NCBI RefSeq assembly: GCF_013464915.1
Contig: NZ_RAVT01000002.1
Coordinates: forward strand, 91,557-141,041
Source of the DNA: Stenotrophomonas maltophilia
Lineage (GTDB): Bacteria; Pseudomonadota; Gammaproteobacteria; Xanthomonadales; Xanthomonadaceae
Length of the DNA stretch: 49,485 nucleotides
Reading direction: 5' to 3'
In this document: positions 33,004 to 49,485 of the stretch, one piece after another
How positions within the stretch are numbered: position 1 is the stretch's first letter
Layout: every line of letters starts with the position of its first letter
The notes under the pieces: generated by a model
What the model saw: the letters and a program-made list of their open reading frames with translations, nothing else
Told to the model about the DNA's origin: nothing
Database searches by the model: none
Translations under genes and position numbers: made by a program

Positions 33004-33078
33004 GATGATGAATCCCGCTCATGGATTGGTGAAGTAATACCATTTTACGTCATGGAAGGGCATGGCTAGCATCGGCTC

Positions 33079-33666
33079 ATGCTTTCACCTGCCCGCCCCC
33101 TTCGAATCGTCGCCGTTTCCGGCGGACTGCAGCGTCCCTCCAGGGCCGCCACCCTGGCCGAGCACCTGCTGGACCTGATCGGCGAGGACATCCATAGCGA
33201 GCAGCACCTGGTCGAGCTGGGCGAACTGGCCCCGCAGCTGGCGGGTGCGCTCTGGCGTTCGCAGCTGCCCGACACCGTGGAACGCCAGTTGGCCGCCGTC
33301 GAGGAGGCCGATGTGCTGGTGGTGAGCACGCCGGTCTATCGCGGCTCGTACACCGGGCTGTTCAAGCACTTCTTCGACTTCATCCACCAGGACGCACTGG
33401 TCGACACCCCCATCCTGCTGGCCGCCACCGGTGGCAGCGAGCGCCATTCGCTGGTGATCGACCATCAGCTGCGCCCGCTCTTCAGCTTCTTCCAGGCGCG
33501 CACCCTGCCGTTGGGTGTCTACGCCACCGACCGCGATTTCGCCGACGGCCGCGTGCACAACGATGCCCTGATCGAGCGGGCACGGCTGGCGGTGCGGCGG
33601 GCCCTGCCGCTGCTGGCCCTGCCCCGCCATCGCGCCGCCGCCCTTGAGGCCGCCGCAGCACTTTGA
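33079..33666 (+). CDS. NADPH-dependent FMN reductase (MsuE-like)
   Basis: 195 residues of the flavodoxin-like FMN reductase family: IVAVSGGLQRPSR (phosphate-binding loop), VLVVSTPVYRGSYTGLFKHFFDF and ILLAATGGSERHSLVIDHQLRPLFSFF. Such enzymes supply reduced FMN to oxygenase-type partners, as in sulfonate use (MsuE). Here the next genes are MesX (DUF1852) and MesD, so I infer it supplies reduced flavin for that oxygen-dependent system. Cytosolic; first gene of the unit, divergent from the MetR-like regulator. Confidence 0.9.
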   Translation: MLSPARPLRIVAVSGGLQRPSRAATLAEHLLDLIGEDIHSEQHLVELGELAPQLAGALWRSQLPDTVERQLAAVEEADVLVVSTPVYRGSYTGLFKHFFDFIHQDALVDTPILLAATGGSERHSLVIDHQLRPLFSFFQARTLPLGVYATDRDFADGRVHNDALIERARLAVRRALPLLALPRHRAAALEAAAAL

Positions 33667-33722
33667 ATGCCGGATGCCTTCGCCCGCATCCGGATGTCAC
33701 CCCGCACTACGGAACGCCACCC

Positions 33723-34700
33723 ATGACGACCGACACCTTCACCTTCAGCATCACGCGCATCCCCTTCAACGAGGATTACCAGCCTGCTGACGGGACGCGC
33801 ATCACCACCAATTTCGCCAACCTGGCCCGCGGCGCGTCGCGCCAGGAAAACCTGCGCAACACGATCAGCATGATCAACAACCGCTTCAACGATCTGGCGC
33901 ACTGGGACAACCCCAGCGCGGATCGCTACGCGGTCGAGCTGGACATCATCTCGGTGGAGATGCACATCGATGGCGGCGATGGCAGCGATCCGTTTCCGCT
34001 GATCGAGGTGCTGCGTCCGACCATCGTCGACACCCGCACCGGTGCCCGTACCGAGGGCATCGTTGGCAACAATTTCTCGTCCTACGTGCGCGACTACGAT
34101 TTCAGCGTGGTGCTGCCGGCCAGCAACGAAGGCAAGGCCACCTTTGGCATTCCGGAAGGCTTCGGCGACCTGCATGGCAAGCTGTTCAAGCACTTCCTGG
34201 AGTCTGACGCCTACCGTGCCAACTTCAGCAAGGGGCCGGTGATCTGCATCAGCGTCTCCAGCAGCAAGACCTACCACCGCACCGAGAACCACCACCCGAT
34301 CCTGGGCGTGGAGTACCGCCAGGGCGAGTTCTCGCCCACTGACCAGTACTTCGACAAGATGGGCCTGCAGGTGCGTTACTTCATGCCGCCGGGCAGCGTC
34401 GCACCGCTGGCGTTCTACTTCCAGGGCGACCTGCTGGGCGACTACTCGAACCTGGAGCTGATCGGCACCATCAGCACGATGGAGGCCTTCCAGAAGATCT
34501 ACCGCCCGGAGATCTACAACGCCAACTCCGTGGCAGGCAAGGTCTACCAGCCCAGCCTGAAGCACCAGGATTACTCTTCCACCCGCATCGTCTACGACCG
34601 CGAAGAGCGCAGCCAGCTGGCGGTCAAGCAGGGCCGGTTCACCGAAGAACACTTCATCAAGCCGTACCGCGCCGTGCTTGAGCAGTGGGCTGCCCGCTGA
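33723..34700 (+). CDS. mesX: DUF1852 protein MesX
   Basis: 325 residues of DUF1852, now known as MesX, an accessory protein needed by the folate-independent methionine synthase MesD (established knowledge). Characteristic segments are FSITRIPFNEDYQPADGTRITTNFANLARG and NHHPILGVEYRQ. ATG at 33723 starts the domain; an earlier in-frame start is unlikely. 40 bp upstream of mesD in the same unit. Confidence 0.9.
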   Translation: MTTDTFTFSITRIPFNEDYQPADGTRITTNFANLARGASRQENLRNTISMINNRFNDLAHWDNPSADRYAVELDIISVEMHIDGGDGSDPFPLIEVLRPTIVDTRTGARTEGIVGNNFSSYVRDYDFSVVLPASNEGKATFGIPEGFGDLHGKLFKHFLESDAYRANFSKGPVICISVSSSKTYHRTENHHPILGVEYRQGEFSPTDQYFDKMGLQVRYFMPPGSVAPLAFYFQGDLLGDYSNLELIGTISTMEAFQKIYRPEIYNANSVAGKVYQPSLKHQDYSSTRIVYDREERSQLAVKQGRFTEEHFIKPYRAVLEQWAAR

Positions 34701-34739
34701 TCCATCGATTCCCCATTCGCCCCCAGGAAACAAGACGCA

Positions 34740-35774
34740 ATGTCGACGAAGAAACTGCTTCCCACCTCCACCGCAGGCAGCCTGCCCAAGCCCTCCTGGC
34801 TGGCCGAGCCCGAGAAGCTCTGGTCACCCTGGAAGCTGCAGGACGACGGCCTGATTGAAGGCAAGCAGGATGCACTGCGCCTGTCCCTGCAGGAACAGCA
34901 GCACGCCGGCATCGATATCGTCAGCGACGGCGAACAGACCCGGCAGCATTTCGTTACCACCTTCATCGAGCACCTCAGCGGTGTCGACTTCGAGAAGCGC
35001 GAAACGGTCCGCATCCGCAACCGCTACGATGCAAGCGTGCCGACCGTGGTTGGCGCGGTCAGCCGTCCGAAACCGGTGTTCGTGGAAGATGCCAGGTTCC
35101 TGCGCCGCCAGACCGCGCAGCCGATCAAGTGGGCCCTGCCCGGCCCGATGACCATGATCGACACGCTGTTCGATGCGCACTACAAGAGCCGCGAAAAGCT
35201 GGCCTGGGAGTTCGCGAAGATCCTCAACGAAGAGGCGAAGGAACTGGAGGCCGCTGGAGTGGACATCATCCAGTTCGACGAGCCCGCCTTCAACGTGTTC
35301 TTCGACGAAGTGAACGACTGGGGCGTGGCCGCCCTGGAGCGTGCGGTTGAAGGCCTGAAGTGCCAGACGGCGGTGCACATCTGCTACGGCTACGGCATCA
35401 AGGCCAACACCGACTGGAAGCAGACACTGGGCTCGGAATGGCGCCAGTATGAAGAGTCGTTCCCCAAGCTGCAGACCTCGAGCATCGACATCATCTCGCT
35501 GGAATGCCAGAACTCGCACGTGCCGATCGACCTGATCGAACTGGTGCGTGGCAAGAAGGTGATGGTGGGCGCCATCGACGTGGCGTCCAATACGGTGGAA
35601 ACGCCGGAGGACGTGGCCAACACGCTGCGCAAGGCGCTGCGGTTCGTGGATGCCGACAAGCTCTACCCGAGCACCAACTGCGGCATGGCACCGCTGGCGC
35701 GTGAAGTGGCGCGCGGCAAGCTGCGCGCGCTCAGCGCCGGGGCGAAGATCGTGCGCGAGGAGCTTTCAGCGTGA
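34740..35774 (+). CDS. mesD: Core-MetE methionine synthase MesD
   Basis: 344 residues, corresponding only to the C-terminal catalytic barrel of MetE without its N-terminal folate-binding half. The N-terminal LLPTSTAGSLPKPSWL, the barrel segments IKWALPGPMTMIDTLFD, VDIIQFDEPAF and HICYGYG and the C-terminal zinc-site cysteine in STNCGMAPL are seen. It transfers a methyl group to homocysteine; the MesD family does not use methyltetrahydrofolate (established knowledge) and depends on MesX and oxygen. The nearby MTHFR-like gene is therefore notable. Confidence 0.92.
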   Translation: MSTKKLLPTSTAGSLPKPSWLAEPEKLWSPWKLQDDGLIEGKQDALRLSLQEQQHAGIDIVSDGEQTRQHFVTTFIEHLSGVDFEKRETVRIRNRYDASVPTVVGAVSRPKPVFVEDARFLRRQTAQPIKWALPGPMTMIDTLFDAHYKSREKLAWEFAKILNEEAKELEAAGVDIIQFDEPAFNVFFDEVNDWGVAALERAVEGLKCQTAVHICYGYGIKANTDWKQTLGSEWRQYEESFPKLQTSSIDIISLECQNSHVPIDLIELVRGKKVMVGAIDVASNTVETPEDVANTLRKALRFVDADKLYPSTNCGMAPLAREVARGKLRALSAGAKIVREELSA

Positions 35775-35829
35775 TCAGGCACCGGTTGAGCGGAAATACC
35801 GGCCGTCCCCCGGTGTGAGGCCTTCCTGT

Positions 35830-35856
35830 ACCCGGGCCTCTGCGTGAGGTCCGGGT
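35830..35856. terminator. Hairpin between mesD and the convergent Sel1 gene
   Basis: ACCCGGGCCTC-TGCGT-GAGGTCCGGGT, an 11-bp stem with one mismatch, in the 109-bp gap between convergent genes. Confidence 0.6.
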
Positions 35857-35883
35857 GAGATGGCAGTCATTGCCCGATGGCAA

Positions 35884-36912
35884 TCAGCGCCTGCGTGCAC
35901 GGCGCTCCGGGCAGTCCTTCGGATCGAACAGCTTGAGGGCGTTCATTATCTGGAGATTGGCAAACGCCCTGTCATGTCCCTGCGCCACGGCTTCGCAGTA
36001 CCAGTAGATTTCCTCATCCCTGTCCTTGGGCACGCCCTGCCCGGTGGCATACAGATTCCCCAGTTCGAACTGTGCGGGCGCGTAGCCCGCCATTGCTGCC
36101 TTGCGGAACCAGGCGGCCGATTGGATCTCATCCTTCTCCACGCCGAGACCATCGGCATACATGGTCGCGAGCACGGCCTGGACCTCGGCGTCGCCCCCTT
36201 GTGCGGCTGCCATCAGCTCCTCAACCGAGTTGAACCTCGGCGGGGGGTCGATCTGGTCACACCACACCTCGCCTTCCTTGCCATTCGAGCACAGCTTCCG
36301 GCGAGCATCGCTGACAAGGATTCCCTTGAGATCCTGGACGGCCGCCTTGGAGTACCAGCGCATGGCTTCGGCCCGGTCTTCGGTGAGGCCCGCCCCGCCG
36401 CTCTCATACAGACTGCCAAGGTTGTACTGCCCTGCGGAATTCCCTCCCTCGGCCGACTTTCGGATCCAGGCGAGGCCCTGCCCGTCATCCTTTGGCACGC
36501 CCAATCCCTCCAGGTACATCATCCCCAGGTCGGACTGTGCAAGGCCGTTGCCCTGCTCCGCCGCCTTGCGCACCCAGAACAGCGCTTGCGCGAGATCCTT
36601 GGGAACCCCGGTTCCATTCAGGTACATCACGCCAAGGGAGGATTGGGCAGATCCATGGCCCTGCTCGGCCGCTCTGTGATACCACTCAACCGCCGTCACC
36701 GGGTTCCTGACCACACCGTTGCCTTCGTTGTAGCGATCTCCAAGATCATTCTCGGCGTCTGCGCTGCCAGCCTCGGCTGCCGCCAGCAGGCTCTTCAACG
36801 AGGTCGCGCCGTCACTGCCAAGCGCGTGGGCGCTGCAGGCGAGAGCAAGCAGGCCTGTGCAAAGAACAGCGCGAGCCCGGGCTCCAATCGAATCTTCCAT
36901 GAACTTCTTCAC
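35884..36912 (-). CDS. Exported Sel1-repeat protein
   Basis: 342 residues. A hydrophobic signal (about residues 12-30, ending SAHA) precedes at least six Sel1-like tetratricopeptide repeats of about 36 residues, with motifs such as AQSSLGVMYLNGTGVPKDLAQALFWVRKAAEQG recurring. Such solenoids bind other proteins; partner unknown. GTG at 36912 is used, with ATG at 36900 as a possible alternative. Periplasmic location inferred. Confidence 0.85.
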   Translation of the reverse strand: MKKFMEDSIGARARAVLCTGLLALACSAHALGSDGATSLKSLLAAAEAGSADAENDLGDRYNEGNGVVRNPVTAVEWYHRAAEQGHGSAQSSLGVMYLNGTGVPKDLAQALFWVRKAAEQGNGLAQSDLGMMYLEGLGVPKDDGQGLAWIRKSAEGGNSAGQYNLGSLYESGGAGLTEDRAEAMRWYSKAAVQDLKGILVSDARRKLCSNGKEGEVWCDQIDPPPRFNSVEELMAAAQGGDAEVQAVLATMYADGLGVEKDEIQSAAWFRKAAMAGYAPAQFELGNLYATGQGVPKDRDEEIYWYCEAVAQGHDRAFANLQIMNALKLFDPKDCPERRARRR

Positions 36913-37531: not shown

Positions 37532-38359
37532 TCACGGCTGACGGCAGGCGCCGCCGTTGCTGCACATCACGTCCTCGATCCAGTCGATGTAACGGGACAC
37601 GCGAACGTTGTAGACCACCTGGCCATAGAAGCCCGCTTCAAGGGCGTGCTCGGGAACGGCAGTGATCCAGGACCCAAGGCCGACCAGCTTCCATGCACCT
37701 TGATCCTCGAGTAGCAGCGGGCCGCCGCTGTCGCCGTTGCCGAGCACGCCCTCAAGCGGCAGACCCTGCGGCGGCCGATCGAACCGGTACCAGAGGTAGC
37801 GTTCGTTGCCGCCGGTGATGGCGTTGTACGCCCGGCGCAGGGTTGTGCGATGCGACCCGTTCGGCACCAGGCCCGTGGCGCCGTTGCCGGTGGCGCCCTT
37901 CCCTATCAGGGCTGCAACCTGCCCGGCCTCGGCCGTGCCGCGATAGAGCACTACCGGCGGCACACCGCTGGCCGGCACCGCCAGCCTGATCAGCGCAATG
38001 TCGTCCGACGTGGCCAGGAACGCGTGGATCCTGGAGGGATTTCCCGTTGCCATGGCCTCCTTGCCCAGGGCGTCCGGCATCCGCTTGAAACCTGGATGCA
38101 GGAAAACCCGATCAACGCCGTAGTTCTTCCCGTTGATGGTGATGGTTGCACCCATCCCTTCCATCGGCGCCGCATGGGCGGCGGTCAGCACCCATCCGGG
38201 TGCGATCAGGACACCGTGCCCCTCGCCTGGCATGTCGGCCAGTGCGGGGAACTCCGATGTGTCGATGTGGTATCGGGCATCGTCGACATCGTCGCGGATG
38301 ACCACGGCCCCGGCGGCGAACGGGAGCATCGCAAGCACCAGCAAGAGGCGGCGGATCAT
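37532..38359 (-). CDS. Secreted trypsin-like serine protease (S1 family)
   Basis: 275 residues with a signal peptide (residues 1-18, MIRRLLLVLAMLPFAAGA). The triad is intact: His62 in LTAAHA, Asp120 in SDDIALIRL and Ser211 in GNGDSGGPLLL. C-terminal MCSNGGAC may form a disulfide. The start overlaps the preceding serine-hydrolase stop (ATGA), so the two are translated together downstream of the ABC exporter. Periplasmic. In a RiPP locus it could mature or degrade the peptide, which is inference. Confidence 0.88.
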   Translation of the reverse strand: MIRRLLLVLAMLPFAAGAVVIRDDVDDARYHIDTSEFPALADMPGEGHGVLIAPGWVLTAAHAAPMEGMGATITINGKNYGVDRVFLHPGFKRMPDALGKEAMATGNPSRIHAFLATSDDIALIRLAVPASGVPPVVLYRGTAEAGQVAALIGKGATGNGATGLVPNGSHRTTLRRAYNAITGGNERYLWYRFDRPPQGLPLEGVLGNGDSGGPLLLEDQGAWKLVGLGSWITAVPEHALEAGFYGQVVYNVRVSRYIDWIEDVMCSNGGACRQP

Positions 38360-39519
38360 CGAGGCCCTCCCTTGCCATCCCGTGCAGCAATTCTTTCGAC
38401 AAGCGTATCGACTGCCGTTTCCATGGCGTGTGCCGTCTGATCACCGCTCTGGTTGGTGATGACGAAGATGCCAAGATCATGCTTCGGCATGATGTAGATG
38501 TAGCACTGCGCGCGTGGCACGCCACCGTGGTGGGCGTAATACACGCCCTTCCGGTCATCGCCGGAAACGATGTTCCAGAAGTAGCCGATGCTGAAGTCGT
38601 CGTCGAACGTGGCCAGCGTACGGTGTGATTCCTGTACGACGGGACCGTTGGCCAGCTCGAACTGAAGGTACTTCACCATGTCGGGCACGGTTGCTTTCAC
38701 GTTTCCGGAAGCACCCCATGGCAGCTGCGGCATCGGCGTGGTCGGCACCGGATTGTCGCTGTGGTAACCGACTGCCAGCCGTGGCGTTTCGGCATCGCCC
38801 AGGTTGATCCTGATGCCCGTCATGCCGGCCGAGTCACGGAAGAAGTCACGCAGCAGCGGCTCGTAGTCACGCTGATGGGCCTGTTCCAGAATGTGCGCGG
38901 ACAGCTGCGTGCCGACGCTGGAGTAGGCGTACTCCTTCCCCGGCATCCGCGGGATCTGCACGGCATGCAGGTCCTTCAGGAAATCGGCCTTGCCGTAGCC
39001 TGTGTAGATGGCGTTGAGTTCAGCCGGCGTGCGGTGGTCGGTGAAATCCTCCAGCACCGTGTTCGCACGTTCCGGCAGCATGTTCGGCAGGCCACTGGTA
39101 TGCGACAGCAGGTGGCGGATGCGGATGGGGTGGCCCTGGTACTGCAGGTTCGGATAGTCGCCCTGCAGGTACGTGCGGATGTCATCCTCCAGGCCCAGCC
39201 TGCCTTCCAGGACCGCATTGGCCATCAGGGTGCCGGCCAGCGTCTTGCTCAACGAGCCGATTTCGTAAACGGTTGCGTCGGTGGGCGGCCCTGGCTTGCC
39301 GGTTTCCATGTCACCGCGATGGCGGATGAACGTCCTGCCCCGGTACACCACTGCGATGGAGGCCGCATGCAGCAGCGGTTGCTCGATCAGGGTCTGCGCG
39401 ACCTGGTCGATGTCCGCCCCCAGATCCTTCGGTGGAGCCGTTCCGGCGGAGCAGCCCGCGCCAAGGAGGGCGGCGGACAGGGCGAAGGCGTTGCGCCACC
39501 GCTGGATTCGAACTGTCAT
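38356..39519 (-). CDS. Serine hydrolase of the beta-lactamase/PBP fold, likely lipoprotein
   Basis: 387 residues. The N-terminus has a signal with a near-lipobox (LLGAGC, Cys23). The beta-lactamase-fold motifs are present: S-x-x-K as Ser89-Leu-Ser-Lys92 (EIGSLSKTL), a Tyr-x-Ser motif in YAYSSVG, and HGG in YYAHHGGVPR. Class C/D-alanyl-D-alanine peptidase-like proteins of this type act as esterases or D-amino-peptidases as often as lactamases. ATG at 39519 follows GGAAG and gives the signal peptide at the start; an upstream frame is possible. It overlaps the trypsin-like gene and follows the ABC exporter by 75 bp. Confidence 0.88.
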   Translation of the reverse strand: MTVRIQRWRNAFALSAALLGAGCSAGTAPPKDLGADIDQVAQTLIEQPLLHAASIAVVYRGRTFIRHRGDMETGKPGPPTDATVYEIGSLSKTLAGTLMANAVLEGRLGLEDDIRTYLQGDYPNLQYQGHPIRIRHLLSHTSGLPNMLPERANTVLEDFTDHRTPAELNAIYTGYGKADFLKDLHAVQIPRMPGKEYAYSSVGTQLSAHILEQAHQRDYEPLLRDFFRDSAGMTGIRINLGDAETPRLAVGYHSDNPVPTTPMPQLPWGASGNVKATVPDMVKYLQFELANGPVVQESHRTLATFDDDFSIGYFWNIVSGDDRKGVYYAHHGGVPRAQCYIYIMPKHDLGIFVITNQSGDQTAHAMETAVDTLVERIAARDGKGGPR

Positions 39520-39594
39520 CGAAAGAGCTTCCATGCGCTGGCGTTTGAAGGGCGATCGGGAAAGAGCGCACACGATAGCCCATTGCCAGGCCGA

Positions 39595-41280
39595 TCACCC
39601 GGGGGCGGAAAGAGCCCCTGGCCTGCCTTGATGGCCCTCCCCCAGATCGATCAGCCGATCGGCCGCGGTCACGACGCTGCGCCGGTGGGTGATGGCCACG
39701 ACGGTGACCTCACCGGCAATGGCACGGATGTGGTCCATGATCTCGCGCTCGGTGGCTTCGTCCAGGGCAGAGCTTGCTTCGTCCAGGAACAGGATTGCCG
39801 GCTCGCCATACAGCGCACGCGCGATGGCGATGCGCTGGCGCTCCCCGCCGGAAAGCTTCAGGCCACGCTCGCCCACCGTGGTCTCAAGCCCCTCGGGCAA
39901 GGCCTCGATCAGTGGCAGGATCGCGGCCTTGCGTGCGGCATGCCGCAGCCGGGCATCATCACGCGCGCGCCCCAGCAGGATGTTGTCGGCCAGGCTTTCA
40001 TTGAGCAGGATGACGTCCTGGGGAACCACCGCGACCGCGGCATGCCACGCAGCACGGTCGATATCGGACAGCTCGACGCCATCCACGAGAATCCGGCCAC
40101 GCTGGGGATCGATCGACTTCAGGGCCAGCTTGAACAGCGTCGACTTGCCCGACCCGGTGGGCCCCATCAGGAAGGTGATGCCGCCGCGCCCGGCCTGGAA
40201 GCAGACATCGTCCACCCCGCGCCCGTTGCCGTAACGATGGCTGACCCGCTGGAACTCCAGCCGGCCATCGCCCCCGGCGAAGCGCTGGGCATGGGCCACC
40301 TGCCGTTCTTCGGGCGCAGCCCACAGGGTTGAAAGCGGGCCCAGCATGCTCCAGGAGCGCGCGACGTCGTCGATGGAACGGGCAATCATCTCGAACGGCA
40401 TGTTCAGCTGCAGCAGCAGCAGATTGAACAGGACGATGTCGCCGACGCTGAGCGTCCCACTCTGGTAGCGCGGCAGCAGCAGATGGAAGGTCACGATGAA
40501 CTCCACCGCGAGGCCGATGCCCAGCAGGGCGATGAAGCCTATCCGCTGCAGCACGTAGGCGCGCCAGCTGTCGCGCACGTCCTGGGCCTTCCGCTCGAAG
40601 CGCTGCACCATCCAGGCGCTGCCGCCGAACTGGCGCAGCGTTTCCATGGCATTCATGGCGTTGCCGACGAAACGGGCATTCTGCTGCCCGGCCTCGACGG
40701 CGGCTTCACGATGGATGCGGGCACGGCGGGTGGCGATGGCCGAGAGCGTGACCGCCACCAAGCCGTAAGCCAGCACGATCACCACCACCTGCAGGTTGAT
40801 CAACGTGCCCAGCGTCACCAGGGTTAGCACGATCTGCAACGCACTGGGAATGAAGGCAACCAGCCCAAGCTGCACGACGATCTTCAGTGCGCCACGGCCT
40901 TTTTCCCCGGCTGATTGCAGCTCGGCGGGGTTGTGGTCCAGGAAGAAGCTGTTGGTCTTCTTCAACAGGCGGGCGAAGTAGCGGGTGCTGGTGATGAAGC
41001 CGAGGTTCTCGCCGCTGAGGAACGACAGGTACTGCACCGTGTTCTGCAGGGCACTGCCCACGCCCAGTACGACGGCATAGAGCAGGAATCCCCACGCCAG
41101 CGCGTTGACTCCATCGACGGGCAAGCGGTCGATCAGGCGCGAGAACAGGTACGGCGCAGCAACACTGGCAAGACTGGACAACAGGACACTGCCGGCGATC
41201 AGCAGCAACAGCCTGCGGTCGGCCTTCCAGTACGCCGCCAGGATTTCGGCAACTGGCGGCGGAACTGGGGTCTTTGTCAT
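39595..41280 (-). CDS. ABC exporter with fused membrane and ATPase domains (McjD-like)
   Basis: 561 residues from ATG at 41280, preferred over ATG at 41316 because the latter lies within about 10 bases of the predicted promoter. An N-terminal six-helix exporter domain (about 1-300; LLLLIAGSVLLSSLASVAAPYLF) is followed by the NBD with Walker A GPTGSGKST, signature LSGGERQRIA and Walker B ILFLDEASSALDE. The architecture matches peptide/lasso-peptide immunity exporters such as McjD and also Atm1/HlyB types. It heads the operon with the serine hydrolase and protease and is divergent from the TonB operon across the Zur-like site. Inner membrane. Confidence 0.88.
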   Translation of the reverse strand: MTKTPVPPPVAEILAAYWKADRRLLLLIAGSVLLSSLASVAAPYLFSRLIDRLPVDGVNALAWGFLLYAVVLGVGSALQNTVQYLSFLSGENLGFITSTRYFARLLKKTNSFFLDHNPAELQSAGEKGRGALKIVVQLGLVAFIPSALQIVLTLVTLGTLINLQVVVIVLAYGLVAVTLSAIATRRARIHREAAVEAGQQNARFVGNAMNAMETLRQFGGSAWMVQRFERKAQDVRDSWRAYVLQRIGFIALLGIGLAVEFIVTFHLLLPRYQSGTLSVGDIVLFNLLLLQLNMPFEMIARSIDDVARSWSMLGPLSTLWAAPEERQVAHAQRFAGGDGRLEFQRVSHRYGNGRGVDDVCFQAGRGGITFLMGPTGSGKSTLFKLALKSIDPQRGRILVDGVELSDIDRAAWHAAVAVVPQDVILLNESLADNILLGRARDDARLRHAARKAAILPLIEALPEGLETTVGERGLKLSGGERQRIAIARALYGEPAILFLDEASSALDEATEREIMDHIRAIAGEVTVVAITHRRSVVTAADRLIDLGEGHQGRPGALSAPG

Positions 41281-41324
41281 CGATGTCGTTCCAGCAGGCC
41301 CACGGCGTCTCTCCATTGCTCGCC

Positions 41325-41347
41325 CAAATGCTATGATATAACATCGC
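41325..41347. promoter_or_regulatory. Zur-like box in the divergent promoter region
   Basis: Core TGCTATG-A-TATAACA, with flanking AAA and CGC, matches 17 of 22 defined bases of the gamma-proteobacterial Zur consensus (7-1-7 dyad TGTTATA-N-TATAACA; family knowledge). One arm is perfect and the other 5 of 7. It lies between the ABC exporter operon and the TonB operon and overlaps a candidate -10 (TATGAT, 41332-41337) for the TonB gene, so Zur with zinc would block both. Confidence 0.65.
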
Positions 41348-41386
41348 CATTAAGGGCGGCGCAGCCGCGTTGCAGGCCACTTTCGG

Positions 41387-43798
41387 ATGGGATCGATGGA
41401 CCGGGGAATGACGAACGTATCCACTGCCACGCCGCGCGCATGCATGGCCCTCGGCATCACCGCTGCATTGCTGGCCAGCCTGCCGGTGGCGGCACAGAGC
41501 ACGGTCGCTGGCCAGCGCTCGAGTGCGGCAGGCTCGCCGCCCGAGGCCCCGGCCACGACCCTGGACAAGGTCCTGGTGGTGGGCAGCAACATCCGCAACG
41601 CCGCAGGTGGCGGCGCCTCGCCGGTCATCGTGATCGACAGGGAAGCCATCGACCGCACCGGCGCGGCCACCGTGCAGCAACTGTTCGAGAAACTGCCGCA
41701 GAACTTCGGCGGTGGCGCCAACGGTGCGAACGTTGCCAACCTGGGGGTCGACCGCGATACCGGCAACAACTTCGGCCAGGGCACCGCCCTGAACCTGCGC
41801 GGGCTGGGTACCGGCACCACGCTGACCCTGATCAACGGCCACCGCGTGACCTCATCCAACCGCTACCAGTACGTGGATGTCTCGCTGATCCCGCTGAGTG
41901 CTGTAGAACGCGTGGAAATCCTTACCGATGGCGCCTCGGCCATCTACGGCACCGATGCGGTCGGGGGCGTGGTCAACATCATCCTGCGGCGCGACTTCAC
42001 CGGTTACGAGACCGCTGTGCGCTATGGCACGGTCACTGCCGGCAGCATGGAGGAATACCAGGCATCGCAGTCCGCAGGCTGGTCATGGGAGGGTGGTCAC
42101 GTACTGGCCAGCTACGAGTTCCTGAAGCAGGGCAACCTGCCGGCGGTGGAGAAGGACTTCTCGAGAAACGTGCGGGTCAAGCCCTACGACCTCTATCCAG
42201 GATCGAAGCGGCACAGCCTGTATGTGGACGGCGTGCAGCAGCTCACTGATGTGCTGACCCTGAACGTCACCGGCTCCTTTGCCAAGCGCGAGATGGATAC
42301 CACCATTTCCGGCACGGCCGACGAAACAAGACTGTTCCCGCACACGCGGCAGTTCGACCTGTTCGCCGGCCTCACGCTGGATCTTCCCAATGAGTGGCAG
42401 GCACGCCTGGATTCCGGGTTCGGCAGGAGCGATGTGTCCTACCAGCGCACCACCATCACCGGCAGCTCCGCCAGTACCGCACCGTCCACCAACACCAATT
42501 CCGAATCGCGCTACCTGGACGTGGTTGCCGACGGTGAACTGTTCAACCTGCCCGTCGGCGGCGTTCGTGCTGCTTTCGGTGCGGGGTACCGTCGCGATGG
42601 CTACGAACTGGTCGATCACCGTGGCCTGGAAAAGCCGCTCGACCTGCAGCGCACCGTCAGGTCCGCTTTTGCCGAGCTCAACGTTCCGCTGCTGAAGGAC
42701 CTGCCGGGTGTGCGCAGCCTGTCCCTGACCGCAGCGGCGCGCTATGACGACTACAGCGATTTCGGTTCCACGCTGAATCCAAAGTTCGGCGTGCTGTGGG
42801 AGGCGACCGAGGGGTTGTCGTTCCGCGCCAGCCATGGCCGCTCCTACCGGGCGCCGGTGTACCAGGACATGCAGTTGAACAACACCGTGGTGGTGGCAAA
42901 CGTGCCCAATCCGGCCGCGCCCGGTGGCAACACGATCCTCATGATGCTGTCCAATGGCAACCCGGATCTGGGCCCCGAACGTGCCAAGACCTGGACCGGC
43001 GGTTTCTCGTTCGCACCGCCGTCGGTGCCTGGCCTCAGGATCGACGCGAACTACTACCACATCGACTACGCCGACCGCATCGGCAGTGGCTTCGGCGGCA
43101 GCTTCCCCTCGCTGTTCCTCCAGTCCACGGCCCCCTACGCGGACATCCTGACCACCAACCCCACGCAGCAGCAGATCCAGCAGGCGCGCCAGCTGGGTGT
43201 GTCGGGGCTGGGCCTGTTCGTCTCGCGCGTGGGCCCGTATGCGCTGCCCGCCGGAACGGACGAAACCAACAGCCAGGTGATCCTCGACAACCGCTTCCGG
43301 AACAATGCCTTCACCCGGCAGCGCGGCGTCGATGTCAGCACCTCCTATGGCTTCGATGCCGGCCAGACCCACATCGCGATCGACCTGGCCGGGCAGTACA
43401 TCATCGAATCGAAGCGGCGCGTGACCAGCACCTCTCCCGAGGTGGACGCGGTGAACGCGGTGTACTACCCGGTGGACCTGAAGCTGCGCGGAGGCATCGC
43501 ACTGAGCCGGCAGCAGGCCGCGGGCGGTCTGTTCGTGAACTACGTGGACAGCTATCGCGATCCGGCCAACCTCGCCCGCCCCCACGTCAGCTCATGGACG
43601 ACCGTCGACCTCAATCTCGCCTATCACTTCGGCCCGCCGGCGGACCCGCAGCGTGGCACCTCGCTCGCGTTCAACGTGCAGAACCTGTTCGACCGGGATC
43701 CACCGTTCATCATCAACAGCATCAATACCGGCTACGACCCCACCAACGCGACAGCGCTGGGGCGTTTCCTGTCCATGACGCTGACGCATCGCTGGTAG
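41387..43798 (+). CDS. TonB-dependent receptor of the putative RiPP locus
   Basis: 803 residues. Signal peptide near residues 20-37 (MALGITAALLASLPVAAQ), no STN domain, plug domain from about residue 60 (TLDKVLVVGSNIRNAAGGGASPVIVIDREAI; TDGASAIYGTDAVGGVVNIILRR) and a barrel ending LSMTLTHRW. The start is uncertain between ATG at 41387, 41396 and 41408; GGATGGG four bases before 41396 makes that plausible. The absence of an STN domain and of fecI/fecR means no surface signalling. It is followed at 7 bp by the ABC-2 permeases. Likely ligand is the product of the cluster or its metal complex; inference. Confidence 0.9.
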   Translation: MGSMDRGMTNVSTATPRACMALGITAALLASLPVAAQSTVAGQRSSAAGSPPEAPATTLDKVLVVGSNIRNAAGGGASPVIVIDREAIDRTGAATVQQLFEKLPQNFGGGANGANVANLGVDRDTGNNFGQGTALNLRGLGTGTTLTLINGHRVTSSNRYQYVDVSLIPLSAVERVEILTDGASAIYGTDAVGGVVNIILRRDFTGYETAVRYGTVTAGSMEEYQASQSAGWSWEGGHVLASYEFLKQGNLPAVEKDFSRNVRVKPYDLYPGSKRHSLYVDGVQQLTDVLTLNVTGSFAKREMDTTISGTADETRLFPHTRQFDLFAGLTLDLPNEWQARLDSGFGRSDVSYQRTTITGSSASTAPSTNTNSESRYLDVVADGELFNLPVGGVRAAFGAGYRRDGYELVDHRGLEKPLDLQRTVRSAFAELNVPLLKDLPGVRSLSLTAAARYDDYSDFGSTLNPKFGVLWEATEGLSFRASHGRSYRAPVYQDMQLNNTVVVANVPNPAAPGGNTILMMLSNGNPDLGPERAKTWTGGFSFAPPSVPGLRIDANYYHIDYADRIGSGFGGSFPSLFLQSTAPYADILTTNPTQQQIQQARQLGVSGLGLFVSRVGPYALPAGTDETNSQVILDNRFRNNAFTRQRGVDVSTSYGFDAGQTHIAIDLAGQYIIESKRRVTSTSPEVDAVNAVYYPVDLKLRGGIALSRQQAAGGLFVNYVDSYRDPANLARPHVSSWTTVDLNLAYHFGPPADPQRGTSLAFNVQNLFDRDPPFIINSINTGYDPTNATALGRFLSMTLTHRW

Positions 43799-43805
43799 GC
43801 CCCGC

Positions 43806-45269
43806 ATGCGTGCCCATTCTCCTGCCGCGTCGAGGCCCACGCTGGCCATCCAGCAGGCCTTCGCTGTTGCGTCCACCCAGCTCACGCTGATGTGGCGAGA
43901 GCGGCGTGTGCTGTGGCTCGCCGTTGTCCTGTTGCTGATTGCGGGTGCGTCGGTGCTCAGCGGCGCCGCACGCATGACCCTGCAGGCGCAGGAGCGCCAG
44001 GCAGTGAGCGAGGAAGAGGCGCGGCTATGGGACAGCCAGGGCACGATCGACCCCCACAGTGCCGCCCATGTCGGGCGAGCCATTCCTGCCCCGGTGCGGC
44101 CGCTGGCGGCGCTGGACCCCGGGCTGACGGATTTCCTGGGAACCTCGGTATTCATCGAGGGCCATGCACGGAACCCGGCCCGGCACCGCGCCGTGGACGC
44201 CGGCACCGCACTCAGTCGCTTCCAGGGCTTCTCCGCAGCATGGGCACTGCAGGTCGTGGCGCCGCTGCTGATCATCCTGTCCGGCTTCGCCAGCCTGTCC
44301 GGCGATGTAGCCCGCGAGACGCTGCGCCAGGAACTCGGCACCGGCGCCTCGGCCGGCGCGCTGATCAGCGGGCGATTGATTGCCCTGGCGGCCGCCTCGC
44401 TGCTGCTGGTGATGGCGATGCTGCTGATCAGCCTTCCAGGGCTGTTCATCCAGTACGGCGGCGCCGCCGATATCGTCGCCCTGCTCGCACTTGCGGCGGC
44501 CTATGTGCTCTATCTGCTGGTGTTCTGCGCGTTCACCGTGGGCGTGTCGGCACTTGCCGGCTCCGCTCGAACGTCGCTGGTGGTACTGCTGGGCTTCTGG
44601 GTGGTGTCCACCCTGCTGGTGCCAAGGGTGGCACCGGCCGTGGCCGAATCCCTGCATCCGACCCCTTCCGCGCCCTCCTTCAGGGTGGGCGTCACCGAAG
44701 AAGCGGAGAACGGTACGGATGGCCACGACCCGGCGGACAAGCGGCTGGACGCCTTGCGCACGGCTTTGATGGCGCGCTACCACGTCGACAACGTGGACGA
44801 CCTGCCGGTGAACTTCCGCGGCGTGGCCCTGGAGTTTGCCGAGGCGAACTCGACGCGCGTCTACAACCGCCACTTCGACAACCTGCATGCCACCTACCAG
44901 CAGCAGGATGCCACGCAGCGATTGTTCGCCATTGCCTCTCCAACGCTGGCGCTGCAGTCCTGGTCGCGTGCGTTCGCGGGCACGGATTTCCGGGCGCACC
45001 TGGCATTCCTGCGTGGGGTGGAGGAGTACCGCTACCGGTTGATCCAGGCACTCAACCAGGAAGTGAAACTGCACAAGGCGCCAGGGGGCGGGAAGCATCT
45101 GGCCGATATCGCCGGCATCACCCGCCCAGTGCAGTACCGGGGGCCGCAGCAGAGCCTGGCTGGCATCGCCGCAATCCAGGGCGTGAACCTCGCCATTCTG
45201 TTCGCATGGCTGATGCTCGGTCTCATGGCGGTCGTCGTTTCGTCGCGGCAGCTGGGCAGATCGCCATGA
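43806..45269 (+). CDS. ABC-2-type transporter permease with DUF3526-like region (first)
   Basis: 487 residues with about six membrane segments: an N-terminal one (VLWLAVVLLLIAGASVLSG), a large periplasmic region (about 55-150), a central helical bundle (WALQVVAPLLIILSGFASLSGDVARETLRQELGTG) and a C-terminal segment. The ABC-2 fold with a long extracytoplasmic domain and a second, C-terminal soluble part is the DUF3526 pattern. It starts 7 bp after the receptor gene and overlaps the second permease by ATGA. Together with the second permease and the ATPase it would form an exporter or importer across the inner membrane. Confidence 0.85.
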   Translation: MRAHSPAASRPTLAIQQAFAVASTQLTLMWRERRVLWLAVVLLLIAGASVLSGAARMTLQAQERQAVSEEEARLWDSQGTIDPHSAAHVGRAIPAPVRPLAALDPGLTDFLGTSVFIEGHARNPARHRAVDAGTALSRFQGFSAAWALQVVAPLLIILSGFASLSGDVARETLRQELGTGASAGALISGRLIALAAASLLLVMAMLLISLPGLFIQYGGAADIVALLALAAAYVLYLLVFCAFTVGVSALAGSARTSLVVLLGFWVVSTLLVPRVAPAVAESLHPTPSAPSFRVGVTEEAENGTDGHDPADKRLDALRTALMARYHVDNVDDLPVNFRGVALEFAEANSTRVYNRHFDNLHATYQQQDATQRLFAIASPTLALQSWSRAFAGTDFRAHLAFLRGVEEYRYRLIQALNQEVKLHKAPGGGKHLADIAGITRPVQYRGPQQSLAGIAAIQGVNLAILFAWLMLGLMAVVVSSRQLGRSP

Positions 45270-46624
45270 GCGTGGTGTCGATTGGCCGCTACGAGGTCCG
45301 TCGCCTGCTGCGTGACCGGGCGCTGCCGGTGCTGCTTGTCCTCCTGCTGGGGCTGGCAGCCTACGCCGCCTGGAACGGCCGCGCCTGGGTAGACCAGCGC
45401 GAGGCGGCCATCGCACTGATCAAGCAGGAAGAGCAGCAGACCAGGGATCGCAGCCGCAGGTTCGTCGGCAAGGCGCCGTCGGTGCTGCCCCGCGTGCAGC
45501 CGGTGCTGGTGCCCGGTGAGATGGCATCGCTATCGATCGGCCAGGCGGATGCCTACCCCTACACCGCCGACGTGGTCGCGCTGGGCGATCCGACCCAGCT
45601 GCTCAAGCACGTCTGGGCCGACATCGGCAATCCGGCAGCACGGGCCGCAGGGCGGTTCGATCTGGCCTTCGTCATCGTCTTCCTGCTGCCGTTGGTCATT
45701 CTCGTGGCCACCCATGACCTGTGGTCGCGTGAGCGTGAGCGCGGGATCGTGGCGCTGCTGTTGTCGCAGCCGGTTTCGGCGACGCGGCTGCTCGTGGTCA
45801 AGGCACTCGCCCGTGGCCTGATGGTGCTGCTGCCCACGCTGGCCATCATCGTCGCAATGGCCGTCTGGTCAGGCGCCCGCAGCCCAGTGGGGTTGATCAT
45901 GCTGGCCCTGACCGTACTCGCCTACGGTGCTTTCTGGCTGGCATTGGCGCTGCTGATCGCGTGCCTTTCCCGCCGCACCACCGAGGCGGCCATCGCCGCC
46001 GGCGCGCTGTGGCTGCTGATCGTGGTCATGGCCCCCTCATTGACCCTGGCCGCGGTGAACCTGATCGCGCCGCCACCGTCGCAGATGCAGTTCGCCACGG
46101 AAGTGAAGGCGATGCAGTCAGATATCGCCAAGCGCCAGCAGCGCGAGCACCTCGTACGACCGGCACCCCAGCATTCGTCATCGCCTGTCATTCCCGATGC
46201 GGTGCGCCAGGCCTATGCCGACCGGGTCGCCGCTGATCGTGAACTGGCCCCGCTGATCGCCTCGCATGCCCGGGCGGAGGCAGCGTACCGTCGCGTACTG
46301 GACAGGGTGCGGCTGCTGCTGCCCGCCGTGGCCACCCAGGACGCGCTTGACCGCATCGCAGGCTCGGATGCCGACCGCGCGCTCGACTTCCAGCGTCAGG
46401 TCCACACTTTCTGGCAGGCGCGGCGGCTGTTGCACGAGGGCTATCTGGACCGTGACCTGCCGCAGACCCTCGACGAGTACGAGGCACTCCCCCGCTTCCA
46501 GTTCCGCGAGCCCGCGGGCGCTGCCCAGCCGGGTGTCCTGGCCGATCTTGCCGCCCTGATCATCGCCAGCCTGATTGTCCTGCTTGCTGCCGCCTCGCTG
46601 CGCGGTCGGCTGGCAACGCCCTGA
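45266..46624 (+). CDS. ABC-2-type transporter permease (second)
   Basis: 452 residues with the same plan as its neighbour: N-terminal helix (VLLVLLLGLAAYAAW), a periplasmic domain, then FDLAFVIVFLLPLVILVATHDLWSRERERGIVALLLSQPV (a conserved ABC-2 element) and further helices. A long soluble part around residues 280-430. The ATG overlaps the upstream stop, and the ATPase gene follows after 12 bp. The pair is probably a heterodimer. Direction of transport is unknown. Confidence 0.85.
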   Translation: MSVVSIGRYEVRRLLRDRALPVLLVLLLGLAAYAAWNGRAWVDQREAAIALIKQEEQQTRDRSRRFVGKAPSVLPRVQPVLVPGEMASLSIGQADAYPYTADVVALGDPTQLLKHVWADIGNPAARAAGRFDLAFVIVFLLPLVILVATHDLWSRERERGIVALLLSQPVSATRLLVVKALARGLMVLLPTLAIIVAMAVWSGARSPVGLIMLALTVLAYGAFWLALALLIACLSRRTTEAAIAAGALWLLIVVMAPSLTLAAVNLIAPPPSQMQFATEVKAMQSDIAKRQQREHLVRPAPQHSSSPVIPDAVRQAYADRVAADRELAPLIASHARAEAAYRRVLDRVRLLLPAVATQDALDRIAGSDADRALDFQRQVHTFWQARRLLHEGYLDRDLPQTLDEYEALPRFQFREPAGAAQPGVLADLAALIIASLIVLLAAASLRGRLATP

Positions 46625-46636
46625 GGAAACGTCCAC

Positions 46637-47347
46637 ATGCTGTCTGCAAAGAGCCTGGTCATGGAGCACGGTGCGCATCGTGCGCTGGATGACGTCAGTT
46701 TCGAGGTGAAGCCCGGCGAGATCTTCTGCCTGCTGGGCGCCAACGGCGCCGGCAAGTCGACGACCATCAAGCTGTTCCTTGGCTTTCTGAAACCCACCTC
46801 CGGTGCGGCCGAAGTGGACGGTCTCAGTGCACACCAGCAGCCGCAGGAGGTACGGCGGCGGCTGCTGTACATCCCCGAGACCGTGGCGCTGTACGACGAG
46901 TTGACCGGCTATGAAAACCTGGACTACTTCGCCCGCCTGGCCGGTGTCGAGGAGCGCTCACCTGCGCGGCTGAAGCAGGCGCTCAGGTCGGCCGGGCTGG
47001 CAACCGAGGCGTTCGGGCGCCGCGCGGGCCTGTATTCCAAGGGCATGCGGCAGAAGGTCGGCGTCGCACTGGCCATCGTCAAGGAAGCCAAGGCGCTGCT
47101 GCTGGATGAGCCGACCTCCGGCCTGGACCCCACGGCATCCGCCGAGTTCCACGAGCTGATCGTACGGGAGCGTGATCGCGGCACGGCGATCCTGATGGCA
47201 ACCCACGATCTGTTCCGGGCCCGCGAGGTGGCGACCACGATCGGCCTGATGCGCGCCGGTCGTCTGCGCAGGACGCTGGATGCCAGCACGATCACCGCGA
47301 ACCATCTCGAGAACCTCTACCTGGAAGAGATGAGCCGGAACGCCTAG
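46637..47347 (+). CDS. ABC transporter ATPase
   Basis: 236 residues: Walker A GANGAGKST, Q-loop segment in LLYIPETVALYDELTGYENLDYFARLAG, signature YSKGMRQKVGVALAI, Walker B ALLLDEPTSGLDP and the H-loop ATHDLF. SD AGGA lies nine bases upstream. It energises the two ABC-2 permeases. Its stop overlaps the stop of the convergent cyclase gene by four bases with no room for a terminator. Confidence 0.92.
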   Translation: MLSAKSLVMEHGAHRALDDVSFEVKPGEIFCLLGANGAGKSTTIKLFLGFLKPTSGAAEVDGLSAHQQPQEVRRRLLYIPETVALYDELTGYENLDYFARLAGVEERSPARLKQALRSAGLATEAFGRRAGLYSKGMRQKVGVALAIVKEAKALLLDEPTSGLDPTASAEFHELIVRERDRGTAILMATHDLFRAREVATTIGLMRAGRLRRTLDASTITANHLENLYLEEMSRNA

Positions 47348-49185
47348 ACCACGCCGGCTGTCTGCGGACCAGCCTGGCCGGACCAGCGCCTCAGCCAGGC
47401 TTCGATGTTGATCTGCGGGCCGAAGATGCCCAGCACCTGCGACGAGTGATCCGGACTGACCCCTCGGATGCCCGCATCGGCCAGCGCGCTGTCGAGGTAG
47501 CCACGCCTGGCCAGGAACCCATCGACAAGCAGGCTGCTGATGAACGGCTGGTGCCCCTGGGTGACGGCCACGGAGTGATCATCCAGATACGACTTCACCT
47601 TTCGCGACAGCAGCGCCTCAGGAAGCAGGCCTTTCAGTGCGCGCCGCGCGATGGTGCGGTCCTCCGCATCGGCCATGAGCAGGTGCAGCGGTATGCGCGC
47701 GAACAACTCGACAAGCGGCTGCGCACTGATCGGTGACACGCCATGCCAGCGTCCCACGCCCTCGAACGGATCAAGCACACTGGTCGGGAAAATCATCCGG
47801 CCGATATGGGCCAGCTTGTAGGGGGATACGTGATGCCCCTGCTCCAGGGCATGCCGCAGCCAGGCCGGCTGCATGCCATCCTGCTCGGCATGCTCCACCC
47901 GCACCCATGGGCAGGGCTTGCCCCATCGGCCGTTGATGCTGGCCGGACGCCTGAGCAGGCCATGGACAAGCGCATCCCGCAGTACGCCGTACAGCGAGTC
48001 GCCAGACTGCGCGGTTTCGAAGGCCACGCGGAAGAATCCCCGGTCGATGCCGCGACGCCAGGCGTAGTCGATCGCAGCGGCGTTGCCCTTGAAACGCAGG
48101 AACACTGCATCACCGCCGACACCGGTGAACTGTACGGTGTCGCCGTCGAAGTCCACGTCGCGTCGGTGGAGGAGATAGCCGGAGCAATGCGCTGGCCGCG
48201 CTGTGCGCGGGAAGGTCATGATCTCTTCCAGCGCGCAGTGTGGCTGCCGCCGGTACTCGATGAATTCGCAGTGCCTGCCCGAGGATTGCCGGGCCCCTTC
48301 GACCGCCAGTCGTGCGAATCGCCGCTCGTCGGCACCGATGCCGTCGTCGTAATGATGGACACAGGTCACCTCGGGAGCTGAGGGCGCATGCAGCAGGCCC
48401 GCCAGGATGATCGAGGAGTCCAGCCCACCGGACAGCTGCAACTGGATTTTCCGGTGCTGGCCGGCCAGCGCGCCGATGCAGCCGAGCAGTGTTGAACGGG
48501 CCAGCTGCACGGCCTCGTCGATGTCCTCGACAGCCTGGTCGCGGGCCAGCCGCACCACGTCCCATTGGCATTGCCGGCCGACCGGCTCGCCATCGCGGAT
48601 CGAAACCGCTTCGCCGGGTTCAACGGAAGTGACCTCCTCGAAGCCGGTCTGCAGGCCATCACGAAACGGGTACAGCAGGGAGTAGGACAGGAACGACCAG
48701 TCCACGCTGAAGTCGCGCAGGCCCAGCCTCAGGCAGTCTTCCATGTTGGAGAAGACGATCGTCACCTGGCCCACCGTGGTCATGTAGCACGGGATCTCCG
48801 CAGTGGGATCGCGCAGGACAAACCAGCTCGCCGTCTGCGGCTGGTAGCCGAACGCCACGTACCGGCCCCAGTACCGCTCGACGATGCTGCGGCCGAGGGT
48901 GCTGCAGGCGCTGTCGGCCGAGTCCGCATCGAGGTTTGCGCGCTCAGGTACGATGCCTGCGCCAAAATGCTTGTGGAACAGCGTTCCGAGCACCGCCAGG
49001 GAACCGGATCGATTGCATTCGAAATAGCCGGGATTGTCAGTCTGCGCGTAGATCGCAGCCCCGTTTCCGTTCATCACGCAGCTGGCACCGGGCAGCGTGG
49101 CCTCGATCCTTGCCACCGCCTGGCCCGCGTGGGCAGTCGCGGATTCGGAGAACGTGTTCCAGAGCACGGCGATGTATCGATACAT
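47344..49185 (-). CDS. Lasso-peptide-type cyclase (asparagine synthase family)
   Basis: 613 residues. The N-terminal glutamine-amidotransferase-like domain starts MYRYIAVLW and lacks the catalytic Cys2 of true asparagine synthases, as in McjC-type cyclases. The C-terminal synthetase domain has the ATP-pyrophosphatase loop SGGLDSS (residues 252-258) and VGGDAVFLRF, with further conserved VKSYLDDH near the end. McjC-like enzymes adenylate a side-chain carboxylate of a leader-processed peptide and close the macrolactam. It follows the B2 gene by 13 bp. A true asparagine synthetase is possible but less likely given the B2 neighbour. Confidence 0.85.
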   Translation of the reverse strand: MYRYIAVLWNTFSESATAHAGQAVARIEATLPGASCVMNGNGAAIYAQTDNPGYFECNRSGSLAVLGTLFHKHFGAGIVPERANLDADSADSACSTLGRSIVERYWGRYVAFGYQPQTASWFVLRDPTAEIPCYMTTVGQVTIVFSNMEDCLRLGLRDFSVDWSFLSYSLLYPFRDGLQTGFEEVTSVEPGEAVSIRDGEPVGRQCQWDVVRLARDQAVEDIDEAVQLARSTLLGCIGALAGQHRKIQLQLSGGLDSSIILAGLLHAPSAPEVTCVHHYDDGIGADERRFARLAVEGARQSSGRHCEFIEYRRQPHCALEEIMTFPRTARPAHCSGYLLHRRDVDFDGDTVQFTGVGGDAVFLRFKGNAAAIDYAWRRGIDRGFFRVAFETAQSGDSLYGVLRDALVHGLLRRPASINGRWGKPCPWVRVEHAEQDGMQPAWLRHALEQGHHVSPYKLAHIGRMIFPTSVLDPFEGVGRWHGVSPISAQPLVELFARIPLHLLMADAEDRTIARRALKGLLPEALLSRKVKSYLDDHSVAVTQGHQPFISSLLVDGFLARRGYLDSALADAGIRGVSPDHSSQVLGIFGPQINIEAWLRRWSGQAGPQTAGVV

Positions 49186-49198
49186 GCGACAGGTTTCG

Positions 49199-49485
49199 TT
49201 ACAGCACCAGGATGGGGACCATCCGGCGCAGGTTGAAGGGAATATCGGTCAGCACGTGATCACCGTGCTGCAGCCAGCAGTGCGCAGCGAACGGCTGTGT
49301 CCTGACTGCGAACACCCAGGCAGGGACGATCCCGTACTTCGACAGGAACTCCCTCATCGCCAGGCAGTAGAGAAAGCACTCATCGGTCTTCCTGAAGGCG
49401 ACGGGCCGGAGCCAATCGAACACCCGGACCAGGAAGGCCAGCTCCTGGAGGCTTGCCGCCGTGCCCGGGGAGATGTCGGCCCGCC
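49199..49485 (-). CDS. Lasso peptide B2-type leader peptidase, C-terminal part, cut by the window edge
   Basis: The reading frame is open from the TAA at 49199-49201 to the right edge, giving 95 visible residues. The transglutaminase-like catalytic pattern is visible: Cys in DECFLYCLAMREFLSKYGI (equivalent to CLPRSLALR in B2 proteins), His in FAAHCWL and Asp in LTDIPF. B2 proteins remove the leader peptide from lasso precursors. The gene precedes the cyclase by 13 bp, the usual B-C order. An internal GTG at 49423 is probably not the start. The precursor and any B1 recognition protein would lie to the right. Confidence 0.82.
   Translation of the reverse strand, partial: RADISPGTAASLQELAFLVRVFDWLRPVAFRKTDECFLYCLAMREFLSKYGIVPAWVFAVRTQPFAAHCWLQHGDHVLTDIPFNLRRMVPILVL

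Follow-up and report, generated by a model that had tools for sequence, protein, structure and literature searches.

RESULTS

Gene content of the locus

The window analyzed here is a 49,485-base stretch of Stenotrophomonas maltophilia DNA (bases 91557 to 141041 of a 171,365-base contig), and its right edge is a single N that falls within a lasso leader peptidase gene (B). Past that edge the contig (continuation L003; window coordinate = L003 coordinate + 47443) carries the remainder of B, a precursor gene (A), a second and stronger Zur-like box, and a divergent gene, orfX. The features of the locus are as follows:

37532-38359, minus strand: trypsin-like serine hydrolase (domain scan of the window)
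38356-39573, minus strand: beta-lactamase-fold serine hydrolase (domain scan of the window)
39595..41316, minus strand: exporter D, an ABCB-type ABC exporter (PF00664 and PF00005); the true start is likely some codons inside
41327..41344, plus strand: Zur-like operator common to D and the TonB operon, AATGCTATGATATAACAT (17.7 bits, zrgA-trained matrix)
41387..43798, plus strand: TonB-dependent outer membrane receptor (PF00593, PF07715)
43806..45269, plus strand: ABC-2 permease 1, DUF3526 (PF12040, PF12679); co-occurs with C
45272..46624, plus strand: ABC-2 permease 2, DUF3526 (PF12679, PF12040)
46637..47347, plus strand: ATPase of the ABC-2 transporter (PF00005)
47344..49185, minus strand: lasso cyclase C, asparagine synthetase-like (PF00733); adjoins B and A
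49199..49485, minus strand: lasso leader peptidase B, in-window part (PF13471); the whole gene is L003 1756-2457
L003 2534-2692, minus strand: precursor A, 53 aa, core AHNHGTLWDGVFPTTSP; beyond the window, same contig
L003 2803-2820: Zur-like operator before A, AATGTTACGATATAACAT (28.0 bits, zrgA-trained matrix)
L003 2887-3813, plus strand: orfX, 308 aa, divergent from the precursor; no confident Pfam family

The original prediction, made from the window, described a TonB receptor with its own ABC-2 transporter, and the receptor gene is indeed followed by two DUF3526 permeases and an ATPase. It also described a B2-type peptidase fragment; the B2 domain stands, and the fragment does not, since gene B continues past the N at the window edge. 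To the left of the cluster (32089-36912), ORFs of the LysR regulator, FMN reductase, methionine synthase, and Sel1-repeat types were named by reading.

Precursor and lasso enzymes

Lasso precursors are short, with Thr at leader position -2 and Asp or Glu at core positions 7 to 9. The DNA right of 49485 had been named as the place to look for such a gene, and one was found there on the same contig: an ORF of 53 codons, with AGAGGAG ahead of its ATG, encoding the leader MNELIELGVVAGQQNPDEQGVGGELIELGSVVSETK and the core given above. Because the core has Ala1 and Asp9, a nine-residue ring is predicted. We compared this precursor across 17 genomes picked for carrying C at at least 67% identity. The core is identical in 12 of 12 Stenotrophomonas genomes; the five loci outside this genus (four in the Xanthomonas cucurbitae genus group and one in another) carry AHSHGTLWDGIFPTTSP (three loci), AHGHGTLWDGIFPTTSP (one), and AHNHGTFLEASFIATTSP (one). 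Ala1, His2, His4, Gly5, Thr6, an acid at position 9, and a TTSP tail are invariant across 17/17 cores. Position 3 varies while His2 and His4 stay fixed, and the His codons switch between CAC and CAT among the 17 genomes. The leader/core junction reads ET(K/R)/A in all 17 precursors, with residue 9 being D in 16 and E in one. The leaders of A and its 16 orthologs hold two copies of the LIELG-type motif (the first reads IDLEL in L073); the second stands at the usual position, and the first may offer B an additional docking site.

Three comparator lasso cores (L040, Sphingomonas paeninsulae, and Stenotrophomonas acidaminiphila) have no His, a sample too small to give a base rate. A search of 369 genomes for benenodin-type precursors gave five weak matches, none reaching the cut-off, and did not recover the precursor of this cluster (16.9 bits against benenodin model NF033522, cut-off 33), so it could not serve to estimate how common His-x-His is among benenodin-type cores.

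The predicted McjC-like cyclase is borne out by C, an asparagine synthetase-like protein encoded beside B and A that scored 63.5 bits against PF00733 (cut-off 21); NCBIfam lasso and albusnodin cyclase models match it far under their cut-offs. The window-edge part of B scored 51.7 bits against PF13471, over the cut-off, and the lasso_biosyn_B2 model NF033537 was passed by 3/3 B orthologs tested (61 to 68 bits, cut-off 33). Identity to the B of this cluster is 75 to 96% within the genus and 57 to 61% in the five other loci. The lasso assignment had been made to hang on a precursor or a B1 gene next to B2: the precursor is present, and B has an N-terminal part ahead of its B2 domain, with B1 weakly recognized (PqqD-type model NF033530, 18.1 bits in one of the three orthologs, cut-off 70). 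Since C and the precursor both fall under the cut-offs of lasso-specific models, they point to a divergent lasso family. Taken together, these sequence comparisons support a complete lasso precursor-B-C set, the product of which would be a threaded macrolactam lasso peptide.

Exporter, ABC-2 transporter, and neighboring genes

The proposal of an McjD-like ABC exporter held in part: D is an ABC exporter, with a likeness shown as far as the ABCB type in general. D matches general exporter families alone, and its closest full-length solved relatives include ATM1-type heavy metal exporters. ABC-2 proteins are exporters as a rule. The ATPase of the ABC-2 transporter scored 139.9 bits against the lantibiotic protection model TIGR03740 (cut-off 309.75), and another model matches it better.

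We also fetched six DUF3526 modules from loci without C. Four of these show a Zur-like site of 12.5 to 21.8 bits ahead of the first gene (L076 6858, L078 6532, L079 8617, and L080 3615), and the remaining two have no site above 7.6 bits; in L076, a TonB receptor gene follows. The proportion of four in six suggests a wider zinc link of this transporter type, and the C-less DUF3526 ABC-2 module is possibly a Zur-controlled uptake module of wider spread.

The structure prediction for orfX had a mean pLDDT of 42.9. Assignment to DUF7734 was not believed (best Pfam E-value of 0.0027 among 14 members). Decay or sequencing error has split the gene between two frames in two genomes, X. cucurbitae CFBP2542 (L072 13655-14637) and G301 (L073 13496-14420). 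The two serine hydrolases that had been grouped with the exporter as periplasmic partners exist as genes, and their membership in the system was dropped: the trypsin-like gene is present in 4/17 and the beta-lactamase-fold gene in 2/17 of the fetched stretches examined. Being kept in so few, they appear to be local additions. The beta-lactamase-fold protein was found too in S. maltophilia SJTL3.

Distribution of the conserved block

In all 17 fetched stretches, A, B, C, the ATPase, both permeases, the TonB receptor, D, and orfX are present; D adjoins orfX instead of the TonB gene in the five loci outside Stenotrophomonas. The cluster is patchy among relatives. Across 101 related genomes, C had 14 matches at E up to 1e-20, 10 at at least 80% identity and four at 26 to 31%, and permease 1 had 21 matches, at 72 to 100% in the same 10 C-bearing genomes and at 29 to 36% in 11 others. 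Wide conservation of the exporter and receptor genes in genomes lacking B and C had been raised as an objection to the model; permease-1 orthologs are confined to the 10 of 101 relatives that bear C at at least 80% identity. In a family-wide sample, C was found at at least 67% identity in 12 of 395 genomes, with a thirteenth match at 32%, and orfX was found in the same 12 of 390 genomes. An order-wide sample gave C in 10 of 398 genomes, nine of which belong to the 12 just counted, the tenth matching at 31%. Eight named records carry C (seven Stenotrophomonas and one X. cucurbitae), and all matches in 23 plasmid records were under 60% identity to C, with no near relative among them.

Candidate Zur operators within the genome

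A Zur-like operator had been proposed in the divergent promoter between the exporter and receptor genes, and one is present there at 41327-41344, scoring 17.7 bits on an independent matrix built from zrgA sites only; the next best place in the window scores 8.9 bits. The box ahead of precursor A outscores this D/TonB box. A pattern drawn from the two cluster boxes, allowing up to three mismatches and run genome-wide with a reversed control, matched seven places (reversed control, 0): the two cluster boxes, a place just ahead of zrgA, one MerC-type gene, and three TonB receptor genes at their 5′ ends. zrgA (PF10986, zinc uptake) has a divergent MerC-type gene alongside.

Because the box-derived pattern is circular, a published motif and the zrgA-only matrix were used. 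The published proteobacterial Zur core is GTTA-N5-TAAC (PMC4176598). This core is exact in the precursor box and has one mismatch in the D/TonB box. Genome-wide it occurs at seven sites, equal to the seven of the reversed control and thus without enrichment; the genome count alone was therefore rejected as evidence. Two of the seven perfect cores have no clear zinc gene beside them in the 3 kb fetched (G000:C58:33129, 22.3 bits; G000:C105:66408, 19.1 bits). A 23-base Zur consensus had no match in the genome, cluster boxes included, at up to three mismatches. The genome encodes a Zur protein (L043 1684-2202), for which the nearest solved chain is 7dh7 (E = 2e-88); it matches Escherichia coli Zur 4mtd (E = 7e-28) and scores 125 bits against the NCBIfam Zur model, below its cut-off of 167.

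Candidate Zur operators across loci

Among 61 relatives, zrgA was found in 24, and a perfect site is present in all 16 loci that belong to this genus; of the eight zrgA loci of other genera, three have a perfect site, two a one-mismatch site, and three none. The Zur matrix was built from six distinct zrgA sites of this genus alone and was scored within 400 bases upstream of cluster genes. The absence of a zinc or Zur response in either operon had been set as a refuting outcome; at the level of sequence, this independently trained matrix speaks for a response. With it, candidate operators mark both making and uptake genes: the A promoter scores 24.6 to 30.9 bits in 17/17 loci, the TonB promoter at least 14.1 bits in 16/17, and the D promoter at least 14.1 bits in 13/17. 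The control region before permease 1 reaches at most 1.2 bits in the 17 loci, and the maximum over 128,243 background positions of other sequence is 10.4 bits. In the 12 Stenotrophomonas loci a single site serves D and TonB (8.9 bits in L029). In the five other loci, the A and TonB boxes are kept in 5/5 with changed letters, and a D box is present in 2/5, with none within 400 bases in 3/5. Because the loci are related, these counts are not independent. Five distant lasso clusters (L037 to L040 and L075) have no site over 10.4 bits.

In 14 of 17 loci no site of the stretch scores higher than the A box; it is outscored in L072 by the TonB box, in L073 by a site 1.4 kb before D, and in L071 by a near-perfect Zur-like palindrome (420-432, 39.9 bits). 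A further gene fragment resembling a TonB receptor lies beside this palindrome, at a distance of 4 kb from the lasso genes. Counted over 18 cluster sequences (349,537 bases), GTTA-N5-TAAC has 28 occurrences against 0 or 1 for other spacings, and 25 of the 28 sites sit, by position, at A, TonB, or D promoters. Other half-site pairs accumulate in these loci as well (TTGA-N9-TCAA, 11; TTGA-N6-TCAA, 10; TGAT-N5-ATCA, 7); because kinship piles up such pairs too, the 28 perfect cores are not independent events. Ahead of the TonB gene in L073 (4401/4422) and L074 (4253/4274), two perfect cores are spaced by 21 bases, possibly accommodating two Zur dimers. Overall, promoter sequence supports Zur control of A-B-C, the TonB operon, and D, and we infer that Zur binds the cluster boxes.

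DISCUSSION

Relation to known systems

The nearest layout is that of benenodin/astexin-type clusters. The cluster of this type in Sphingomonas paeninsulae (NZ_CP032828.1) is alike in its A-B-C order, its IELG...ETK leader, and a TonB operon convergent to C, and its C is about 27% identical to the one described here. Its receptor operon holds an isopeptidase, FecR, and a sigma factor, whereas ABC-2 genes take that place in Stenotrophomonas; no lasso isopeptidase was found among the eight window proteins scanned, and no FecR or sigma factor beside the receptor among the cluster proteins scanned. Relative to that layout, the Stenotrophomonas cluster adds D, orfX, and the Zur boxes, and its core has His-x-His, whereas the S. 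paeninsulae core (GPLGQGVDENKRIPVAGLSED) has no His. Microcin J25-type clusters combine A, B, and C with an ABC exporter D, as here, although the microcin J25 cluster is not known to have a TonB receptor of its own, an ABC-2 module, or a Zur box. Within the genus, a same-genus genome (L040 13118, minus strand) has an ordinary Gly1 lasso precursor with core GGIPGNTEFLAVKQDMGISQD by eye, a C of about 25 to 26% identity, and no Zur-like site. The S. acidaminiphila lasso peptide (PMC4675943) has core GILQGNEPMGGEPVPGISEE, a predicted ring of 7 residues, and no His, differing from the nine-residue ring and His2/His4 of the present cluster.

In function, the closest parallel is with Zur-controlled zincophores, pseudopaline among them. 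Pseudopaline, staphylopine, and coelibactin are Zur-controlled zincophores according to PMC8000910, which names chelator operons for pseudopaline and staphylopine, that of staphylopine including a transporter. The cluster resembles these systems in its candidate Zur operators and in encoding a receptor and an exporter with a putative chelator (17/17 loci). None of the three is known to be a ribosomal peptide, unlike the predicted lasso zincophore. Neither a Zur-controlled lasso peptide nor a lasso zincophore appeared among the matches listed in the literature, a scope that takes in few preprints and subscription journals; within the literature covered, proof of a lasso zincophore would give the lasso class a function not described for it before.

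Proposed function and alternatives

We consider the chance slightly better than even that this is a Zur-repressed lasso peptide system induced by zinc starvation, most likely a zincophore. With zinc present, Zn-Zur on two operators would silence A-B-C, orfX, the TonB-ABC-2 operon, and D; once zinc is exhausted, all units would open together. B would cut the leader, and C would link Ala1 to Asp9 to form a lasso whose ring bears His2 and His4. D would export the lasso, zinc would be bound outside the cell, and the TonB receptor would bring the zinc-loaded peptide to the periplasm. The ABC-2 transporter could carry the peptide inward or re-export the emptied peptide, the latter being considered because ABC-2 proteins usually export. 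This detailed scheme (a zincophore with ring His-x-His, export by D, recapture through TonB, and recycling by the DUF3526 ABC-2 transporter, with receptor-ABC-2 modules of nonproducers perhaps stealing peptides) is more tentative, at a little under an even chance. As a whole, the cluster has the appearance of a system for producing, exporting, and recapturing a peptide with two fixed His under zinc scarcity, and the peptide may accordingly fetch zinc. Lasso threading, zinc binding, export, import, and recycling are proposed steps; the zincophore role is plausible and is helped by the invariant His-x-His. Against it, two His offer few ligands if zinc is to be held tightly, and the D/TonB box is weaker than the A box, with its one mismatch and its low score in L029. 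The missing D box in three of the five loci outside Stenotrophomonas, the lack of genome-wide enrichment of GTTA-N5-TAAC, and the patchy distribution of the cluster also count against it.

The main rival is a Zur-controlled antimicrobial lasso peptide released at zinc shortage; in that case the ABC-2 transporter would give LanFEG-like self-protection, and self-recapture or kin targeting would fall to the TonB receptor. Some lasso peptides are antibacterial and enter through TonB receptors, D is a plain exporter, the ATPase has its below-cut-off match to the lantibiotic protection model, and the usual exporter role of ABC-2 proteins fits immunity as well. Yet 12 species-level genomes share one core, which changes little beyond the genus, unlike the products of an arms race, the producer has its own receptor, and His-x-His is fixed. 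The near-fixed core, the invariant His-x-His, the Zur switch, and the dedicated receptor together fit a zincophore better than a toxin, and we regard the antimicrobial reading as fairly unlikely.

An invariant core and a dedicated receptor would also suit a cue of zinc status that is sensed through TonB and carries no metal, and in another lasso cluster FecR and a sigma factor accompany the TonB receptor; the conserved genes scanned here include no sigma, anti-sigma, or other regulator, with an ABC-2 transporter there instead, which makes a signal improbable. We judge it equally improbable that the Zur-switched peptide chelates or chaperones a different metal (Cu, Ni, or Co) or serves periplasmic zinc handling: His-x-His binds several metals, and D has ATM1-type relatives, but the Zur boxes link the system to zinc shortage. 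Finally, the lasso genes could be hitchhikers beside a Zur-controlled TonB-ABC-2 module that does zinc uptake alone, as the C-less DUF3526 modules with a Zur-like site, one of them followed by a TonB receptor gene, might suggest. The precursor box is at least 24.6 bits in every locus and mostly the strongest of the system, and the module's own orthologs never occur without C among the 101 genomes; we give this reading very little credence.

Implications

To our knowledge, the benefit of most lasso peptides to their makers, and the reason that TonB receptors lie beside many lasso clusters, are unsettled. A zinc-switched cluster with a near-fixed His-x-His core makes one answer, nutrient capture in place of warfare, directly testable. 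If the zincophore reading is true, lasso peptides would join zincophore chemistry, a zinc-starvation trait of some Stenotrophomonas and Xanthomonas would find its explanation, and DUF3526 ABC-2 transporters would gain a role.
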